From positions 248,001 through 312,000 of the forward strand of contig NZ_JAINVZ010000003.1 of assembly GCF_019890615.1 (NCBI RefSeq): 64,000 nucleotides of DNA, given 5' to 3'. Numbering within the stretch: the stretch's first letter is position 1; each line of letters starts with the position of its first letter. Source of the DNA: Streptantibioticus parmotrematis. GTDB taxonomy: Bacteria > Actinomycetota > Actinomycetes > Streptomycetales > Streptomycetaceae. Positions 20,967-25,731 of this stretch are shown here, piece by piece. The notes under the pieces are model-generated. The model saw only the letters and a program-made list of their open reading frames with translations, was not told the DNA's origin and did no database searches. Made by a program: the position numbers and the translations under genes.

Positions 20967-22208
20967 TCAGGCCAGCCAGGTGCGGGCCGCGGTGACCAGC
21001 GCTCGTACGCCCGTCGTCAGCGTCGGCTCGATGACGGGGGCGAACTTCGGGGAGTGGTTGGAGGGCACCTCGCTGTCGGCGGTGCCACCGTTCGCCGCGG
21101 CGGCGAAGGCGGCCGGGTCGGCGCCGCCCAGCAGCCAGTAGCACAGCGGTGCGCCCGCCGCCGTGGCCAGCACGCCGACGTCCTCGCTGCCGCTGACCGG
21201 GCCGGGGGCTACCACCTGCGCGTCGCCGAACTCCGTGCGGAAGGCGTTCATCGTGCGATCGGTCGTCTCCGGGTCGTTGACCAGTACGGGGAAGGAGTCG
21301 ACGACGGTGATCTCCGGGTCCTTCACCGCGCCGGACGCGGCGGCCTCGGCGTGCACGATCCGGCGGACGCCCTCCAGCACCCGCTCGCGCACCGGCTCCG
21401 TGTAGGAGCGGATGCTCAGGCCGAGTTCGGCGTCGTCCGGGATGACGTTCTCCTTGGTCCCGGCGCGCAGCGAACCGACCGTGAGCACCGCGGTGTCGGC
21501 CCCGGCGACCTCGCGGGCGACCACGGTCTGCAACCGCAGCACGGTCGCCGCGGCCATCACCACCGGGTCGATGGTGGTCTCCGGACGCGAGCCGTGCCCG
21601 CCGCGGCCGAACAACCGCACCCGCAGCGCGTCCGCCGCCGCGAACGCCGGGCCCGGGTGGGCGCCGACCCAGCCCGCGGGCATCGGCGCGACGTGCTGGC
21701 CGAGGACCACGTCCGGCTTGCCGACCCGCTCGAACAGGCCGTCGTCCACCATCGCCCGCGCGCCGCCGCCGATCTCCTCGGCGGGCTGGAAGAGCGCGAT
21801 CAGCGTGCCGGACCACTCGGCGCGGTCCGCCGCGAGCCGCTCCAGGGCGCCGACGAGACAGGTGACGTGCACGTCGTGGCCGCAGGCGTGCATCACCGGG
21901 ACCTCGTGGCCGTCCTCGTCGGTGTCGGTGACCTGGCTGGCGTACGGCAGGCCGGTGTCCTCGCGCACCGGCAGCGCGTCCATGTCGGCGCGCAGCAGCA
22001 CCGTCGGGCCTTCGCCGTTGCGCAGGACGGCGACGACGCCGGTGCGGCCGACGCCCCGGATCACCTCGAACCCCGCGGCCTCGGCCCGGTCGGCGGCGAT
22101 GCCGGCCGTGCGGTTCTCGCGGAAGGACAGCTCCGGGTGGGCGTGCAGATCCCGGTACAGCTCCTCAAGGGTCGTCGCGCCCGCCGTGGCGTCCTGCTCG
22201 CTGCTCAT
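20967..22208 (-). CDS. M20 family amidohydrolase / metallopeptidase
   Basis: A 413-residue dizinc hydrolase of the M20D branch, which removes acyl groups from amino acids or opens amino-acid conjugates. Seen: HAHPELSFRE at the N-terminus, the metal motif HACGHDVH, QPAEEIGGGA with the catalytic/ligand Glu pair, LGQHVAPMPAGWVG, and a dimerisation lid domain (about 185-300) containing RGGHGSRPE. A final metal His lies in SNHSPKFAPV. No signal peptide, so it acts in the cytosol. It follows the oxygenase gene by 132 bp on the same strand, and both lie behind the Cys leader peptide. That context hints at release of a sulfur-containing amino acid, but this is inference. Confidence 0.92.
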   Translation of the reverse strand: MSSEQDATAGATTLEELYRDLHAHPELSFRENRTAGIAADRAEAAGFEVIRGVGRTGVVAVLRNGEGPTVLLRADMDALPVREDTGLPYASQVTDTDEDGHEVPVMHACGHDVHVTCLVGALERLAADRAEWSGTLIALFQPAEEIGGGARAMVDDGLFERVGKPDVVLGQHVAPMPAGWVGAHPGPAFAAADALRVRLFGRGGHGSRPETTIDPVVMAAATVLRLQTVVAREVAGADTAVLTVGSLRAGTKENVIPDDAELGLSIRSYTEPVRERVLEGVRRIVHAEAAASGAVKDPEITVVDSFPVLVNDPETTDRTMNAFRTEFGDAQVVAPGPVSGSEDVGVLATAAGAPLCYWLLGGADPAAFAAAANGGTADSEVPSNHSPKFAPVIEPTLTTGVRALVTAARTWLA

Positions 22209-22340
22209 CGCTACCTCACCTGTGCTCGGCCTGTTCGCTCCGGCGGCCCGAGGGTCCGCCCGGGATGGTGATCTCCAACATCCCCCATTCCGCGCTCCGG
22301 CGCGAGTGCCGGTCGGCGGGCGCCGGGTGGAGCGCGGCGA

Positions 22341-23357
22341 CTACGCGGCGGCGGGTTCCAGCAGGGCCGCGTGGTGGCGGCGGGCGACCTGCGGGTGGGC
22401 GCGCAGCCAGCCCTTCAGCTCGTTGCGGCCGTACTCGGCGAACAACGGGTTGGCCGGGTCCCGCGTCGCGCCGGGCGCGCGATCCGCGTACGGGAACGGC
22501 ACCCGCTCGATGCGGGCGTCGAGGCGGGGGTTGTAGAAGAACGGCACGGAGAAGCGCTCCCGGGCGCCGGGCGGGCTGACGACGCGGTGGTTGGTCGCCT
22601 TCAGGTAGCCGTCCGTGGCGACTTCGAGGAGTTCGCCGAGGTTGACCACGAACGCGCCCGGCAGCGGCGGCACGTCGTGGAACCGCCCGTCGCCGCGCTC
22701 CACTTGGAGGCCGCCGACCTCGTCCTGGAGCAGCAGGGTCAGGAATCCGTAGTCCTTGTGGGCGCCGACTCCCTGGTCGGCGCCGTCCGGTGCGCTGCCG
22801 GGGTAGCGCACCAGCTTCAGGTGCAGATGGGGATCGGCGGCGAAGGCGTCCGCGTAGAAGTCGGCGGGCGCGCCGATGGCGGTGAGCAGTTCGCGCAGCA
22901 GCCGGTCGGCGACCGCGCTCAGCTCGTCGATCCAGCCGAGCGCGGCGGTGCGCAGCTCCGGCAGGGCGGCGGGCCACTGGTTGGGCCCCTCCAGCCACCA
23001 GTACGCGGGCTCGTCCGGACCGGGGACGCGGGCGGGGCGTTCGGCGCCTATGTCGATCTGGTCGCGCCAGTCGCGGCTGCCGCCGGTGCGCTCGTCACCG
23101 ATCCGGGTGTAGCCGCGGAAGTGCGGTGAGTCGAGGGTGGAGATGGCCAGGCGGTCGGCTTCCGGCAGGGCGAAGAACGCGCGCATGGTCCGGGTCAGGG
23201 CGGCGGTGCGCTCCGCGCTCACGCCGTGGCCGGTGAGCTGGAAGAAGCCCACTTCGTGGGCGGCGGTGTGCAGTTGGGCGTGGAGCCGTGCCCGGTCCTC
23301 GGGTCCGCGGTCGGCGGCGGACAGGTCGATGACGGGGAGCTGGTGGTCGTGCGTCAT
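22341..23357 (-). CDS. Isopenicillin N synthase-like Fe(II)/2-oxoglutarate dioxygenase
   Basis: A 338-residue non-heme iron oxygenase. The DIOX_N-like N-terminus begins LPVIDLSAAD and contains HEVGFFQLTGHG. The double-stranded beta-helix has the complete facial triad H200-x-D202 (GAHKDYGFLTLL) and H257 (ATNHRVVSP), and R268-x-S270 (RFSVPFF) for binding the 2-oxoglutarate carboxylate. It is therefore expected to be active, hydroxylating or desaturating a small molecule. Relatives include gibberellin-type and IPNS-fold enzymes; there are no other antibiotic genes here, so true isopenicillin synthesis is unlikely. The start has no obvious ribosome site. It is placed between a leader peptide and an M20 hydrolase. 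Confidence 0.92.
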   Translation of the reverse strand: MTHDHQLPVIDLSAADRGPEDRARLHAQLHTAAHEVGFFQLTGHGVSAERTAALTRTMRAFFALPEADRLAISTLDSPHFRGYTRIGDERTGGSRDWRDQIDIGAERPARVPGPDEPAYWWLEGPNQWPAALPELRTAALGWIDELSAVADRLLRELLTAIGAPADFYADAFAADPHLHLKLVRYPGSAPDGADQGVGAHKDYGFLTLLLQDEVGGLQVERGDGRFHDVPPLPGAFVVNLGELLEVATDGYLKATNHRVVSPPGARERFSVPFFYNPRLDARIERVPFPYADRAPGATRDPANPLFAEYGRNELKGWLRAHPQVARRHHAALLEPAAA

Positions 23358-23474
23358 GGGTGGTGTCCCGCAGGGTGAGGTCCCGGCCGGGCCCGGCGGT
23401 GACCGGGCACGCCACGCGCGGGCGCCGGGTGGGGCGCGGACGCGGTGCCGGAGGGTGAGTGGGAGGTCTCGGGG

Positions 23475-23549
23475 TCAGCCGCTGCGGCGACAGGACATGC
23501 TCGTGACGCGGACGAAGTCCACGTGTCGACGGCGCACGAGCAGGAGCAT
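23475..23549 (-). CDS. Actinobacterial Cys-type leader peptide (24 aa)
   Basis: A 24-residue frame, too short for standard gene callers, starts at ATG 23549 and stops at 23475. Its core RRRHVDFVRVTSMSCRR matches the actinobacterial putative leader peptides (xxRRHVDxxRxxSxxC), which lie upstream of sulfur-acquisition genes and are thought to act as cysteine-responsive attenuators; the Cys codon is at position 20. No ribosome site precedes it, but a TACCCT -10 ends exactly 6 nt before the ATG, so the transcript is probably leaderless. The dioxygenase begins 117 bp downstream and would be the controlled gene. That gap is GC-rich and can fold, but I cannot define one terminator by eye. Confidence 0.7.
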   Translation of the reverse strand: MLLLVRRRHVDFVRVTSMSCRRSG

Positions 23550-23555
23550 GCGTGA

Positions 23556-23600
23556 AGGGTACTCGCGCCCCCGGACGGCCGCGACGGTGACGAACGTCAC
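23556..23600 (-). promoter_or_regulatory. Leaderless promoter and upstream palindrome of the leader peptide
   Basis: The reverse-strand -10 TACCCT occupies 23556-23561. No -35 consensus is present at the proper distance. Instead a perfect dyad GTGACG-TT-CGTCAC (reverse strand; 23587-23600) lies about 26 bp upstream of the -10, a position suited to an activator. Confidence 0.45.
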
Positions 23601-23736
23601 GGCGGCGGGAGACGGCCCGCGGGAACACGGCGGGCCCTCACGGCGGCACGGAAGCGGGCCTCGCGCGGACGGCCCGCGCCCCGCCCGGCGTCTGCCGTGG
23701 CGTGCGGCGCGGGCCGTCGGGCCGTGCCGGGGACGG

Positions 23737-25731
23737 TCAGCGCAGGCGCGCCGCCTGGCCGGCCGGGAGCGTGCCCGGGACCGAGCCGTTCAGGCCGGTG
23801 AGCGGGACGCCCGCCGGGGGCTTGGCGTGGCCGGTGCCCAGGGCGCGGCGCAGCTGGGAGACGCCGCCGACCAGCGGCAGGTTCGCGTGCGATCCCGACA
23901 GGTCGAGCTTGATGGTCGGGGTCGACGGCGGGGCGACGATCAGCCCGTTGTCGGTGCCCGCGACGATCAGGGCGAGCCGGTGCCCGGCCGGGACGACGTG
24001 GTCGCTGGCGGCCAGCTGGAGGGTGATGGTGTAGGGCTTGCCCGGGGTGAGCGACACGCCCTTGTCCAGCGAGGCGTAGTGCCCGAGGTCGGCCCAGCCG
24101 CGGCTGAACACGGTGTAGCCGACGTTCTCGGTGTCGGCCGCGGTGTCCAGGAAGCAGGCGCTGTCGCCCGGTGTGCTGTCACCCCAGCAGGAGCGGGTGG
24201 TCAGCGTGGTGATGCCCTCGCCGTCGTCCTCGTAGTTGCGGATGGTGGCCGGGCCGAGGTCCACCAGGACGGCCGACAGGTGGGCGCTGGTGGTGGAGGA
24301 GGTCGCGGTGAGCGTCACCGTCCCGCTGCCGGACAGCCGCAGGTCCTGCTTGAGCGGCCCGGTGGTGAAGGCGACCTTGTCCGAGGTGGCCTGGTCGACC
24401 TGCGCCGACCAGTCGTCCTCGCTCTGCTTGGGGTTGTCGGTGTAGGTCTCGGCGCTGCCGGAGGCGGGCGGCGTGGTGCTCAGCGCGCCCAGCCCGTTGG
24501 TCGTCCCCGGGTCGAGGCTGAGCGGGGTCGTCGTGGTGCCGGACGGGGGCCACACCGCGTCGGTGGTCCAGTGGTCGGGGGTGCGCTCGATGTCGGCCAT
24601 CGGCTGGTTCTGGATGCCGTTGTCGACGCCCATCAGGTAGTGGTCGAACCACTGGTGCAGGGTGTCGACCCAGGCGCTGCGGCGGTAGTCGAACGGGTCG
24701 ACGTGGCCGGTCTGCGACAGCCAGATCTTGCGCTGCACGCCGTGCGCCGCGAGCGCGTCCCACCACTGGCCGAAGTTCTTGGTGCGGACGTTGAGGTCTT
24801 CGAGGCCCTGTGCGACGAAGACGCTGGCCTTGACCTTGGCGGCGTCGGCCACGTAGTCGCGCTGCTGCCAGGCCGACGTCCAGTCGCCGTCGCGTGGCGC
24901 CCCGTCGCGCAACGCCTGTTCCTCGGCGGAGCACTTGGACTGCGCCGCGGAGCTCTCCACCTCGGAGGCGAGTTCGTCGGGGCCGCCGTCGTAGAGGGCG
25001 GCGCCCTGCGCGAAGTAGTAGTCGTACCAGGAGCTGATGCCGCTGATGTCGACGATGGTCTTCAGGCCGTCGACGCCGGTGGCCGCGACCCCGTTGGCGA
25101 TCGTGCCGTCCCAGCTCTTGCCGATCATGCCGACCGACCCGTTGGACCAACTCGCTTGCGCGGCGGTCGTTCCGGTTCTCGTCGTGTAGCCCTTGGCTCT
25201 GCCGTTGAGCCAGTCGATGACCGCCTTGGCGGAGGTGACGTCGGAGGGGCCGCCGACGTCGACGCAGCCGTCCGAACGGTTGGTTCCGGCCAGGTCGACC
25301 AGGACGACGGCGTAGCCGCGCGGGACGAAGTAGTTGTCGTAGTAGAGCGGGAACTGCACCGGGTTCCCGTTCTTGTCGTACGTCTTGAGCTGGTTCTCGT
25401 TGCCCCGGCCGCAGCACGAGTAGTACGGGCTGGCGTCCATGATGACCGGGACCTTCTGGCCCTTGGCCGCCGGTTCGCTGGGCCGGATGATGTCGGCGGC
25501 CACCCGGTCGGTCTTGCCGTCGTGGTCACCGTCGATGCCGGTGTCGACCCAGACGGACTGCCGGATGGCGTTGGAGTAGGAGTAGACGGGCTGCGTGCCC
25601 GTGTCCTTCGGTGCGGGGCGGCCGTGGGCCATGGCCGGAGCGGTGAAGACGGCCAGGAGGGCGGCTACGACGACCGCCACGACCGACAGGGAGTGTAGGG
25701 GGATGCGGGCTCTCCGCGCGTGTGACAGCAC
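23737..25731 (-). CDS. Secreted Xaa-Pro dipeptidyl-peptidase-like hydrolase (CocE/NonD, S15)
   Basis: A 664-residue exported alpha/beta hydrolase. A signal peptide is seen (RRARIPLHSLSVVAVVV, then a hydrophobic run to TAPAMAHG, cleavage after AMA). The S15 catalytic core has the nucleophile elbow GKSWDG, Asp in GLEDLNVRT and His in QTGHVDPFDYRR, followed by the PepX C-terminal jelly-roll (from about residue 400). It would cleave X-Pro dipeptides or small esters outside the cell. I chose GTG 25731; the frame remains open 74 codons upstream but that part is Arg/Pro-rich and precedes the signal peptide. It is divergent from the deacetylase. Confidence 0.9.
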   Translation of the reverse strand: MLSHARRARIPLHSLSVVAVVVAALLAVFTAPAMAHGRPAPKDTGTQPVYSYSNAIRQSVWVDTGIDGDHDGKTDRVAADIIRPSEPAAKGQKVPVIMDASPYYSCCGRGNENQLKTYDKNGNPVQFPLYYDNYFVPRGYAVVLVDLAGTNRSDGCVDVGGPSDVTSAKAVIDWLNGRAKGYTTRTGTTAAQASWSNGSVGMIGKSWDGTIANGVAATGVDGLKTIVDISGISSWYDYYFAQGAALYDGGPDELASEVESSAAQSKCSAEEQALRDGAPRDGDWTSAWQQRDYVADAAKVKASVFVAQGLEDLNVRTKNFGQWWDALAAHGVQRKIWLSQTGHVDPFDYRRSAWVDTLHQWFDHYLMGVDNGIQNQPMADIERTPDHWTTDAVWPPSGTTTTPLSLDPGTTNGLGALSTTPPASGSAETYTDNPKQSEDDWSAQVDQATSDKVAFTTGPLKQDLRLSGSGTVTLTATSSTTSAHLSAVLVDLGPATIRNYEDDGEGITTLTTRSCWGDSTPGDSACFLDTAADTENVGYTVFSRGWADLGHYASLDKGVSLTPGKPYTITLQLAASDHVVPAGHRLALIVAGTDNGLIVAPPSTPTIKLDLSGSHANLPLVGGVSQLRRALGTGHAKPPAGVPLTGLNGSVPGTLPAGQAARLR

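Follow-up and report, generated by a model that had tools for sequence, protein, structure and literature searches.

Organization of the leader-oxygenase locus

We analyzed a stretch of 64,000 nucleotides (nt) from Streptantibioticus parmotrematis (contig NZ_JAINVZ010000003.1, positions 248,001 to 312,000; hereafter the window), in which a short leader peptide with one cysteine (Cys) lies ahead of a gene for a 2-oxoglutarate (2OG)-Fe(II) oxygenase, itself followed by a gene for an M20 hydrolase. A first-pass annotation of this DNA had proposed a 24-amino-acid (aa) peptide of the leaderless type upstream of the oxygenase, and this open reading frame (ORF) was confirmed at 23549-23475 on the minus strand. 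The features of the locus, from the promoter downstream, are the following.

23587..23600, no strand assigned: perfect dyad GTGACG-TT-CGTCAC, in agreement with the GTG(N)6GNCAC consensus of Streptomyces Crp
23556..23561, minus strand: -10 box TACCCT, ending 6 nt upstream of the leader AUG
23475..23549, minus strand: leader ORF MLLLVRRRHVDFVRVTSMSCRRSG, 24 codons, stop codon UGA
23490..23492, minus strand: Cys codon UGU (codon 20), four codons ahead of the UGA stop, presumed stall site
23499..23519, minus strand: leader codons D11-S17, with complementarity to the ribosome-binding region of the oxygenase
23435..23474, minus strand: C-rich, G-poor spacer directly 3' of the leader stop, possible Rho-loading site
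23358..23385, minus strand: oxygenase ribosome-binding region with a GYGGAC-like element before the AUG; the window has GCGGGACA
22341..23357, minus strand: 2OG-Fe(II) oxygenase (PF14226 + PF03171), 338 aa, no Cys and one internal methionine (Met)
20967..22208, minus strand: M20 amidohydrolase, adjacent to the oxygenase only in this genus

The leader is separated from the oxygenase by a spacer of 117 nt, and the oxygenase from the M20 gene, on the same strand, by 132 nt. The last two genes possibly form an operon in this genome, an arrangement that is not conserved. Neither an intrinsic terminator nor a consensus sigma-70 promoter was found in 22100-23760, and an Rfam scan of 22000-25000 gave three weak matches and none above the gathering score. 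The upstream genes for an X-Pro dipeptidyl-peptidase, a VOC protein and Tex were rejected as partners, as only 4-5 of 80 loci have them next to the oxygenase.

Conservation of the leader and of its UGU codon

Conservation was followed in three overlapping sets of loci: a named-genome set made of the best 80 of 352 oxygenase relatives (78-96% identity among the matches listed), a class-wide sample of 394 genomes in which the oxygenase, counted at E <= 1e-60, is present in 70, and an order-wide sample of 147 genomes in which it is present in 63. The leader stands ahead of the oxygenase in all 80 named-genome orthologs, 79 being recognized by the motif and one (L024) carrying YVD in place of HVD. 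It was likewise found in 17 of the 18 class-sample Streptomycetaceae other than the window's own, with L114/L191 as the exception, and in each of the 26 loci read in the order sample, which added 32 Streptomycetaceae genomes. Judged from its presence in 80/80 orthologs, the leader is more than a chance ORF. It is retained while the gene neighbourhoods vary among several different contexts, and the conserved unit consists of the leader and the oxygenase. Conservation of the peptide extends past the Cys to the HVD and RVTS motifs, the Val of HVD being GUG in 97/97 Streptomycetaceae orthologs and Ser17 being coded AGC or AGU in all 90 leaders with a Ser at this place.

The codon of the conserved Cys is UGU in all 124 leader-bearing loci of the three sets (114 distinct sequences), while UGU makes up 14% of the Cys codons in neighbouring ORFs. 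It sits four codons ahead of the stop in 85/97 orthologs, a position near the stop that is also a feature of leaderless Cys attenuators. Eight of ten leader candidates of this genome carry a Cys there, in every case coded by UGU. Pairing of the UGU region with the ribosome-binding site (RBS) of the oxygenase was considered as a cause of this invariance and rejected, the windows around UGU pairing no better than with a shuffled RBS. Since this pairing is unsupported and other leaders of the genome also use UGU, slow decoding is the preferred explanation for the codon.

Against the NCBIfam profile NF042934 ('putative leader peptide') the leader gave E = 1.2e-4 and 21.6 bits, under the curated cut-off of 27, and against NF042936 (the Cys-rich leader Ms4527A) 22.5 bits with one Cys only, under the curated cut-off of 45. 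Searching the whole genome with NF042934 returned 14 matches at E <= 1, six of them above the cut-off, and these six precede genes for an FMN reductase, an arylsulfotransferase, a sulfite reductase with a PAPS reductase, a ThiS-like protein with a CysM-like PLP enzyme, a rhodanese, and a sulfonate-type ABC transporter. A seventh match, just under the cut-off, has a rhodanese gene 614 nt downstream. One weaker match precedes a cystine-type ABC transporter and the others resemble chance; such weaker matches were disregarded, because 6 of 14 control genomes also gave matches at E <= 1, none of them above the cut-off. The arylsulfotransferase (PF14269) preceded by an above-cut-off leader (L127, C45:126073) is an unusual target for a Cys leader.

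In family f36, a different kind of leader occupies the same place. The oxygenase is present in 20 of 60 genomes of genus g61, and all 20 loci carry a near-leaderless ORF with several Cys codons ahead of it, for example VSTNTCRCCRR. Outside Streptomycetaceae, the 51 class-sample loci include 3 with an HVD-type leader and 2 with a poly-Cys leader; among 158 control upstream regions the corresponding numbers are 0 and 1, in a control that is post hoc, with motifs written once the leaders of the loci had been viewed. The three HVD leaders belong to L148 (family f30) and to L152 and L182 (2 of 15 f18 loci).

Promoter and Crp-type site

The promoter of the leader is conserved as well. In 92 distinct promoters out of the 97 orthologous ones, a -10 box spans -12 to -7, with T(-12) at 79%, A(-11) at 80% and T(-7) at 85%, figures that are biased toward the box as the script favoured, among several in-frame leader starts, the one with a -10-like box. 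From the position of this box, the transcript is predicted to start at the leader AUG and hence to be leaderless.

The first-pass annotation had suggested that the dyad could bind an activator, and both its sequence and its fixed position in orthologs back this idea. The consensus reported for Streptomyces Crp is GTG(N)6GNCAC, and according to the same source, streptomycetes do not use Crp-cAMP catabolite repression (PMC10033298). GTGA-N6-TCAC with at most one mismatch occurs in 61/97 orthologous promoters against 1.3/97 in shuffles, and the full Crp consensus in 50/97 against 0.8. With at most two mismatches, 72 promoters contain the site, and in 47 of them it starts at -48, that is, with a centre at -41.5, the class II activator position. 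The centre of the window's dyad is at about -44.5 from the leader AUG, 3 nt upstream of this commonest position. By its sequence the dyad is a Crp-type site, and a Crp-type protein probably aids RNA polymerase at the leader promoter. The perfect dyad occurs at 8 places genome-wide; allowing one mismatch, the window holds 3, a number reached in 6 of 100 shuffles and therefore near chance. Seven further perfect GTGACG-NN-CGTCAC dyads, on contigs C7, C9, C11, C23 and C45 of this genome, are possible Crp-type sites of other genes.

A sulfur-poor oxygenase and its neighbours

The oxygenase matches PF03171 with 88 bits, above the cut-off of 23. The 2OG-Fe(II) motifs are present in nearly all of 153 proteins (HxD in 151, HRV..Rx[S/A] in 153), with patterns that had been widened after a first try giving 122 and 91. 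The predicted structure has a mean predicted local distance difference test (pLDDT) score of 74.7 with a weak C-terminus, and its nearest relatives are 6jyv and an ancestral ethylene-forming enzyme, at 37-39% identity. The closest solved relatives are the ancestral ethylene-forming enzyme and an 'isopenicillin N synthase' (IPNS) of Pseudomonas aeruginosa; a close similarity to IPNS is not seen, IPNS 1bk0 reaching 59.6 bits against 214 for 9ovh.

The protein is devoid of Cys in all 97 Streptomycetaceae orthologs, counted from the aligned start, and contains on average 1.2 internal Met in 336 aa. By comparison, 452 mechanically called neighbour ORFs contain 0.89 Cys and 1.54 Met per 100 aa, and only 4 of 101 of similar size are without Cys. 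The same holds for the loci read in the order sample (zero Cys in 39/39) and, over the last 335 residues, for 11/11 proteins of f36, 10/16 of f4 and 7/15 of f18. Paralogous PF03171 proteins were drawn from 17 loci, six of which were dropped for want of a proper frame (L248, L252, L256, L259, L260 and L263) and four set aside as orthologs (L249, L250, L251 and L253); the seven paralogs left contain 4-12 Cys plus Met each. Sulfur-sparing proteins are described in Rhodococcus under sulfur starvation, where MetY rises too (PMC8557817).

Sulfur genes adjoin distant orthologs of the oxygenase. On the same strand, a sulfur neighbour was found in 19 of 57 class-sample loci, the reference proteins of this search being drawn from the same 57 loci. 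The commonest one, MetY, lies downstream of the oxygenase in 14 loci: one belongs to f46 and 13 are among the 15 of f18, the gene being incomplete in L150, where it reaches the edge. As the substrates of MetY are sulfide or methanethiol, the commonest neighbour points to a reduced sulfur compound as the product of the oxygenase. SfnB-like proteins are found in L155, L160 and L191; L191 also has a homocysteine S-methyltransferase and a cystine-type ABC transporter, while MTHFR occurs in L166 and a Meth_synt_2 protein in L144. L150, L156 and L159 have luciferase-family monooxygenases upstream (one L150 enzyme was identified as NtaA/DmoA type), six f4 loci have a flavin reductase as neighbour, and a taurine/nitrate-type ABC transporter lies upstream in L301. 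A methionine gamma-lyase-like enzyme accompanies the oxygenase in L295, and an MsnO8-family monooxygenase lies downstream in L289. MetY, the homocysteine S-methyltransferase and NtaA/DmoA score above their curated cut-offs, the SfnB-like and ABC proteins below.

Several of these loci hold observations of their own. An MsnO8-type monooxygenase or methionine gamma-lyase-like enzyme lies next to some oxygenases of f50 (L284-L296). In L155 the genes around the oxygenase code for a GNAT acetyltransferase, two SfnB-like proteins and a LysR regulator, which makes this cluster a candidate from which to deduce the substrate. In six of six f4 loci (L153, L154, L157, L165, L168 and L169), a conserved palindrome CCAACCGGTTGG within AACCAACCGGTTGG precedes the oxygenase-flavin reductase pair and is likely a regulator site. 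In genus g68 of f36 (L135, L136, L175-L177, L179, L180, L183 and L184), the oxygenase itself looks leaderless, and most of the nine loci have a GGTAA...CAACA-like element upstream; another regulator may replace the Cys leader there.

RNA features of the leader and spacer

The leader codons D11-S17 are complementary to the oxygenase RBS. In 87 distinct sequences of the 97, three windows inside this stretch form duplexes 1.75-2.2 kcal/mol better with the RBS than with a shuffled RBS, and these windows beat the shuffles in 78-85% of the orthologs, whereas leader windows outside D11-S17 differ from shuffles by at most 0.84 kcal/mol. Since the related sequences are not independent, the single-letter shuffles used here and for the Crp-type site overstate significance. 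A GYGGA element lies shortly upstream of the oxygenase start codon in 82/97 orthologs, the start codons having been picked with this element in mind. The RNA of leader and spacer together folds better than 197 of 200 shuffles; an ON/OFF model derived from equilibrium folding alone gave little. Over the 40 nt following the leader, the mean of C minus G is 0.32 in the 97 orthologs versus 0.005 in 1,482 control stretches, 0.9% of which reach this excess. The complementarity suits a hiding of the RBS, and the C-rich spacer suits Rho-dependent termination.

Discussion

The conservation of the leader, of its promoter and of the Crp-type site, the codon invariance, the sulfur-poor protein and the sulfur-gene neighbours are features of the sequences compared. 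We consider it fairly probable, on this comparison, that the leader senses Cys and that the oxygenase serves sulfur salvage. A sulfur role is suggested because the UGU is invariant, the oxygenase lacks Cys, a poly-Cys leader stands at the same place in g61, sulfur genes are among the neighbours, and other leaders of this genome precede sulfur-type genes. The proposal of the first-pass annotation that the locus is linked to Cys and sulfur scavenging is thus strengthened by the invariant UGU, the poly-Cys leader of another family, the Cys-free protein and the sulfur neighbours.

We prefer a mechanism in which the ribosome stalls at UGU and control is exerted at the level of translation. A Crp-type protein would help RNA polymerase at the leader promoter, transcription would begin at the leader AUG, and ribosomes would translate the leader at once. 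With ample Cys-tRNA, they would pass UGU, terminate four codons on and leave, and the freed leader codons 11-17 could then pair with the ribosome-binding region of the oxygenase and keep ribosomes off. When Cys is short, a ribosome would wait at the slow UGU and cover part of codons 11-17, so that the oxygenase would be made. The Cys-free enzyme would oxidize an organosulfur compound next to its sulfur, and a usable sulfur species would be released for Cys and Met synthesis, for example through MetY as the neighbours suggest. That the leader acts by hiding the RBS is a step for which we see the chances as evenly balanced.

Several observations weigh against this explanation. In equilibrium folding the leader-RBS pairing does not form (mean pair probabilities <= 0.11), the free leader favours its own hairpin, and RBS accessibility changes only from 0.42 to 0.45 when the leader is masked, with an increase in 58/87 orthologs. 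The fold of the window's own sequence pairs the UGU region with the RBS, but across orthologs this pairing is no better than with shuffles, and only one Cys codon of the leader is conserved, which sets it apart from classical attenuators. In 38 of the 57 class-sample loci, the search gave no sulfur gene of the chosen kinds on the same strand, and in most Streptomycetaceae loci the oxygenase has no conserved sulfur neighbour. The HVD leader is absent from all 13 loci of family f50, drawn from 12 genomes, in which the oxygenases are 53-76% identical; no Cys leader was found in the f36 loci of genus g68 or in those of f4, and L191 has none, either at its oxygenase or before the genes upstream of it. 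Because the f50, g68 and f4 loci are without a leader, Cys control is not universal. The first-pass annotation had let its proposal depend on conservation of the leader before orthologous oxygenases; the leader is conserved there in Streptomycetaceae (80/80 and 17/18) and absent from f50 (0/13). It had also looked to the folding of 23358-23474 for a terminator or a sequestering stem: no intrinsic terminator was found and the equilibrium fold is without a leader-RBS stem, while complementarity above that of shuffles was found.

The main rival keeps the Cys-sensing leader, with scarcity of Cys-tRNA as the signal in both cases, and places the off-switch at Rho, which would load on the naked C-rich, G-poor spacer once the ribosome has left at the stop codon and terminate transcription ahead of the oxygenase; a ribosome held at UGU would hinder this. 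The strong C-over-G excess from the leader stop onward (0.32 versus 0.005) and the lack of an intrinsic terminator in 22100-23760 favour this mode of control, which leaves the leader-RBS complementarity unexplained. With a usual ribosome footprint, moreover, a ribosome whose A site holds UGU would reach about to the leader stop, so that the C-rich stretch itself would be uncovered. Rho has been proposed for Cys leaders of Mycobacterium by Seliverstov et al. (PMC1262725). We hold termination by Rho to be possible though somewhat doubtful; it shares the Cys-sensing step with the preferred explanation, and the probabilities of the two overlap.

Two other explanations were weighed. The first-pass annotation had assigned the oxygenase and the M20 enzyme to one pathway, which would open an N-acyl or S-substituted Cys or Met conjugate, like YxeK and YxeP of Bacillus subtilis. 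This is chemically reasonable: the M20 protein reaches 257 bits against TIGR01891 (M20 N-acyl amino acid hydrolase; curated cut-off 153.75), matches the N-alpha-acyl-glutamine aminoacylase 6slf and YxeP 1ysj, and lies on the same strand 132 nt from the oxygenase, while a GNAT acetyltransferase and two SfnB-like proteins flank the oxygenase of L155. The M20 gene nevertheless adjoins the oxygenase in one of the 80 named loci only, a sister strain of the same genus (L050 ends too near the oxygenase to judge). Among the M20 homologs of other genera, 18 loci were read from 29 places and 0/18 have an oxygenase within 1.5 kb or a Cys leader; no Cys leader was found ahead of M20 homologs in 20 loci read. 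With 3 Cys and 6 internal Met, the sulfur content of the window's M20 protein is ordinary. The adjacency and homolog counts led us to reject M20 as a conserved partner, and it is at most a local accessory. Of the proposed co-occurrence of the three genes, the leader with the oxygenase therefore stands (80/80) and the M20 gene falls away (1/80), and we regard the joint pathway as unlikely. Even less probable, in our view, is that the leader, as a conserved small peptide or upstream ORF, does not sense Cys, and that the oxygenase belongs to secondary or other metabolism under Crp. The conservation of HVD and RVTS beyond the Cys, the Crp-type site and the closest solved relatives (the ancestral ethylene-forming enzyme and the P. 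aeruginosa 'isopenicillin N synthase') are in line with it, but it does not fit with the poly-Cys leader, lacking HVD, that another family has in this position, with the sulfur genes that follow other leaders of the type, or with the Cys-free oxygenase and its MetY neighbours.

Translational control by a Cys-sensing leader can be compared with known systems. Leaders of NF042934 are HVD-type peptides too, and the six above-cut-off ones of this genome precede sulfur-type genes; the window's leader differs by its lower score (21.6 bits against 27), by RVTSM before the Cys and by having a 2OG oxygenase as its target. The poly-Cys small-ORF attenuators of mycobacteria (NF042936, Ms4527A), reportedly described as leaderless by Canestrari et al. 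in 2020, likewise have a Cys codon near the stop and sulfur genes downstream. The window's leader, whose transcript is predicted to be leaderless, differs from them by one conserved Cys codon that is always UGU, a conserved peptide and another target gene, while the g61 orthologs do carry the poly-Cys version. For M. smegmatis, PMC13236596 cites translation attenuation as acting on Cys genes, and the S. lividans reannotation lists, in its accessible part, eight leader peptides, none named as Cys-dependent (PMC8079986).

As for the enzyme, the TauD-family dioxygenases of sulfonates and sulfate esters (PF02668) are also 2OG-Fe(II) oxygenases and serve sulfur scavenging, as stated for taurine dioxygenase in PMC7661421. 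The window's enzyme differs in belonging to the DIOX_N / 2OG-FeII_Oxy branch (PF14226 + PF03171), nearest to the ancestral ethylene-forming enzyme and 6jyv; sulfonates are possible substrates. In the B. subtilis yxe system, an oxygenase frees N-acetylcysteine, which YxeP deacetylates, within a YxeL/YxeK/YxeP pathway for S-(2-succino)cysteine (PMC9706529). The window's M20 resembles YxeP, but YxeK is a monooxygenase whereas here the enzyme is a 2OG oxygenase, with which M20 is not conserved. In the literature surveyed, as far as the texts were available, no paper ties the HVD leader type to this oxygenase subfamily, and neither the use of such a leader on this 2OG oxygenase nor the invariant single UGU or the Crp-type site is described there. 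Leaders of this kind are known in the form of a profile.

We tentatively propose, at a little under an even chance, that the DIOX_N-branch 2OG-Fe(II) oxygenase represents a new class of sulfur-salvage enzyme, which would hydroxylate the carbon next to sulfur in a thioether-like compound and release a thiol or sulfide for MetY. It would be wired to Cys by two unrelated kinds of leader, the single-UGU HVD leader and the poly-Cys leader, and in Streptomycetaceae also to a class II Crp-type activator. The arrangement suggests that a Crp-type signal and the supply of Cys are combined at one promoter, and that single-Cys leaders with an invariant rare UGU may constitute a layer of Cys control in the Streptomyces family. 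An uncharacterized oxygenase found in several actinobacterial families would thereby gain a testable role, sulfur salvage under Cys shortage.

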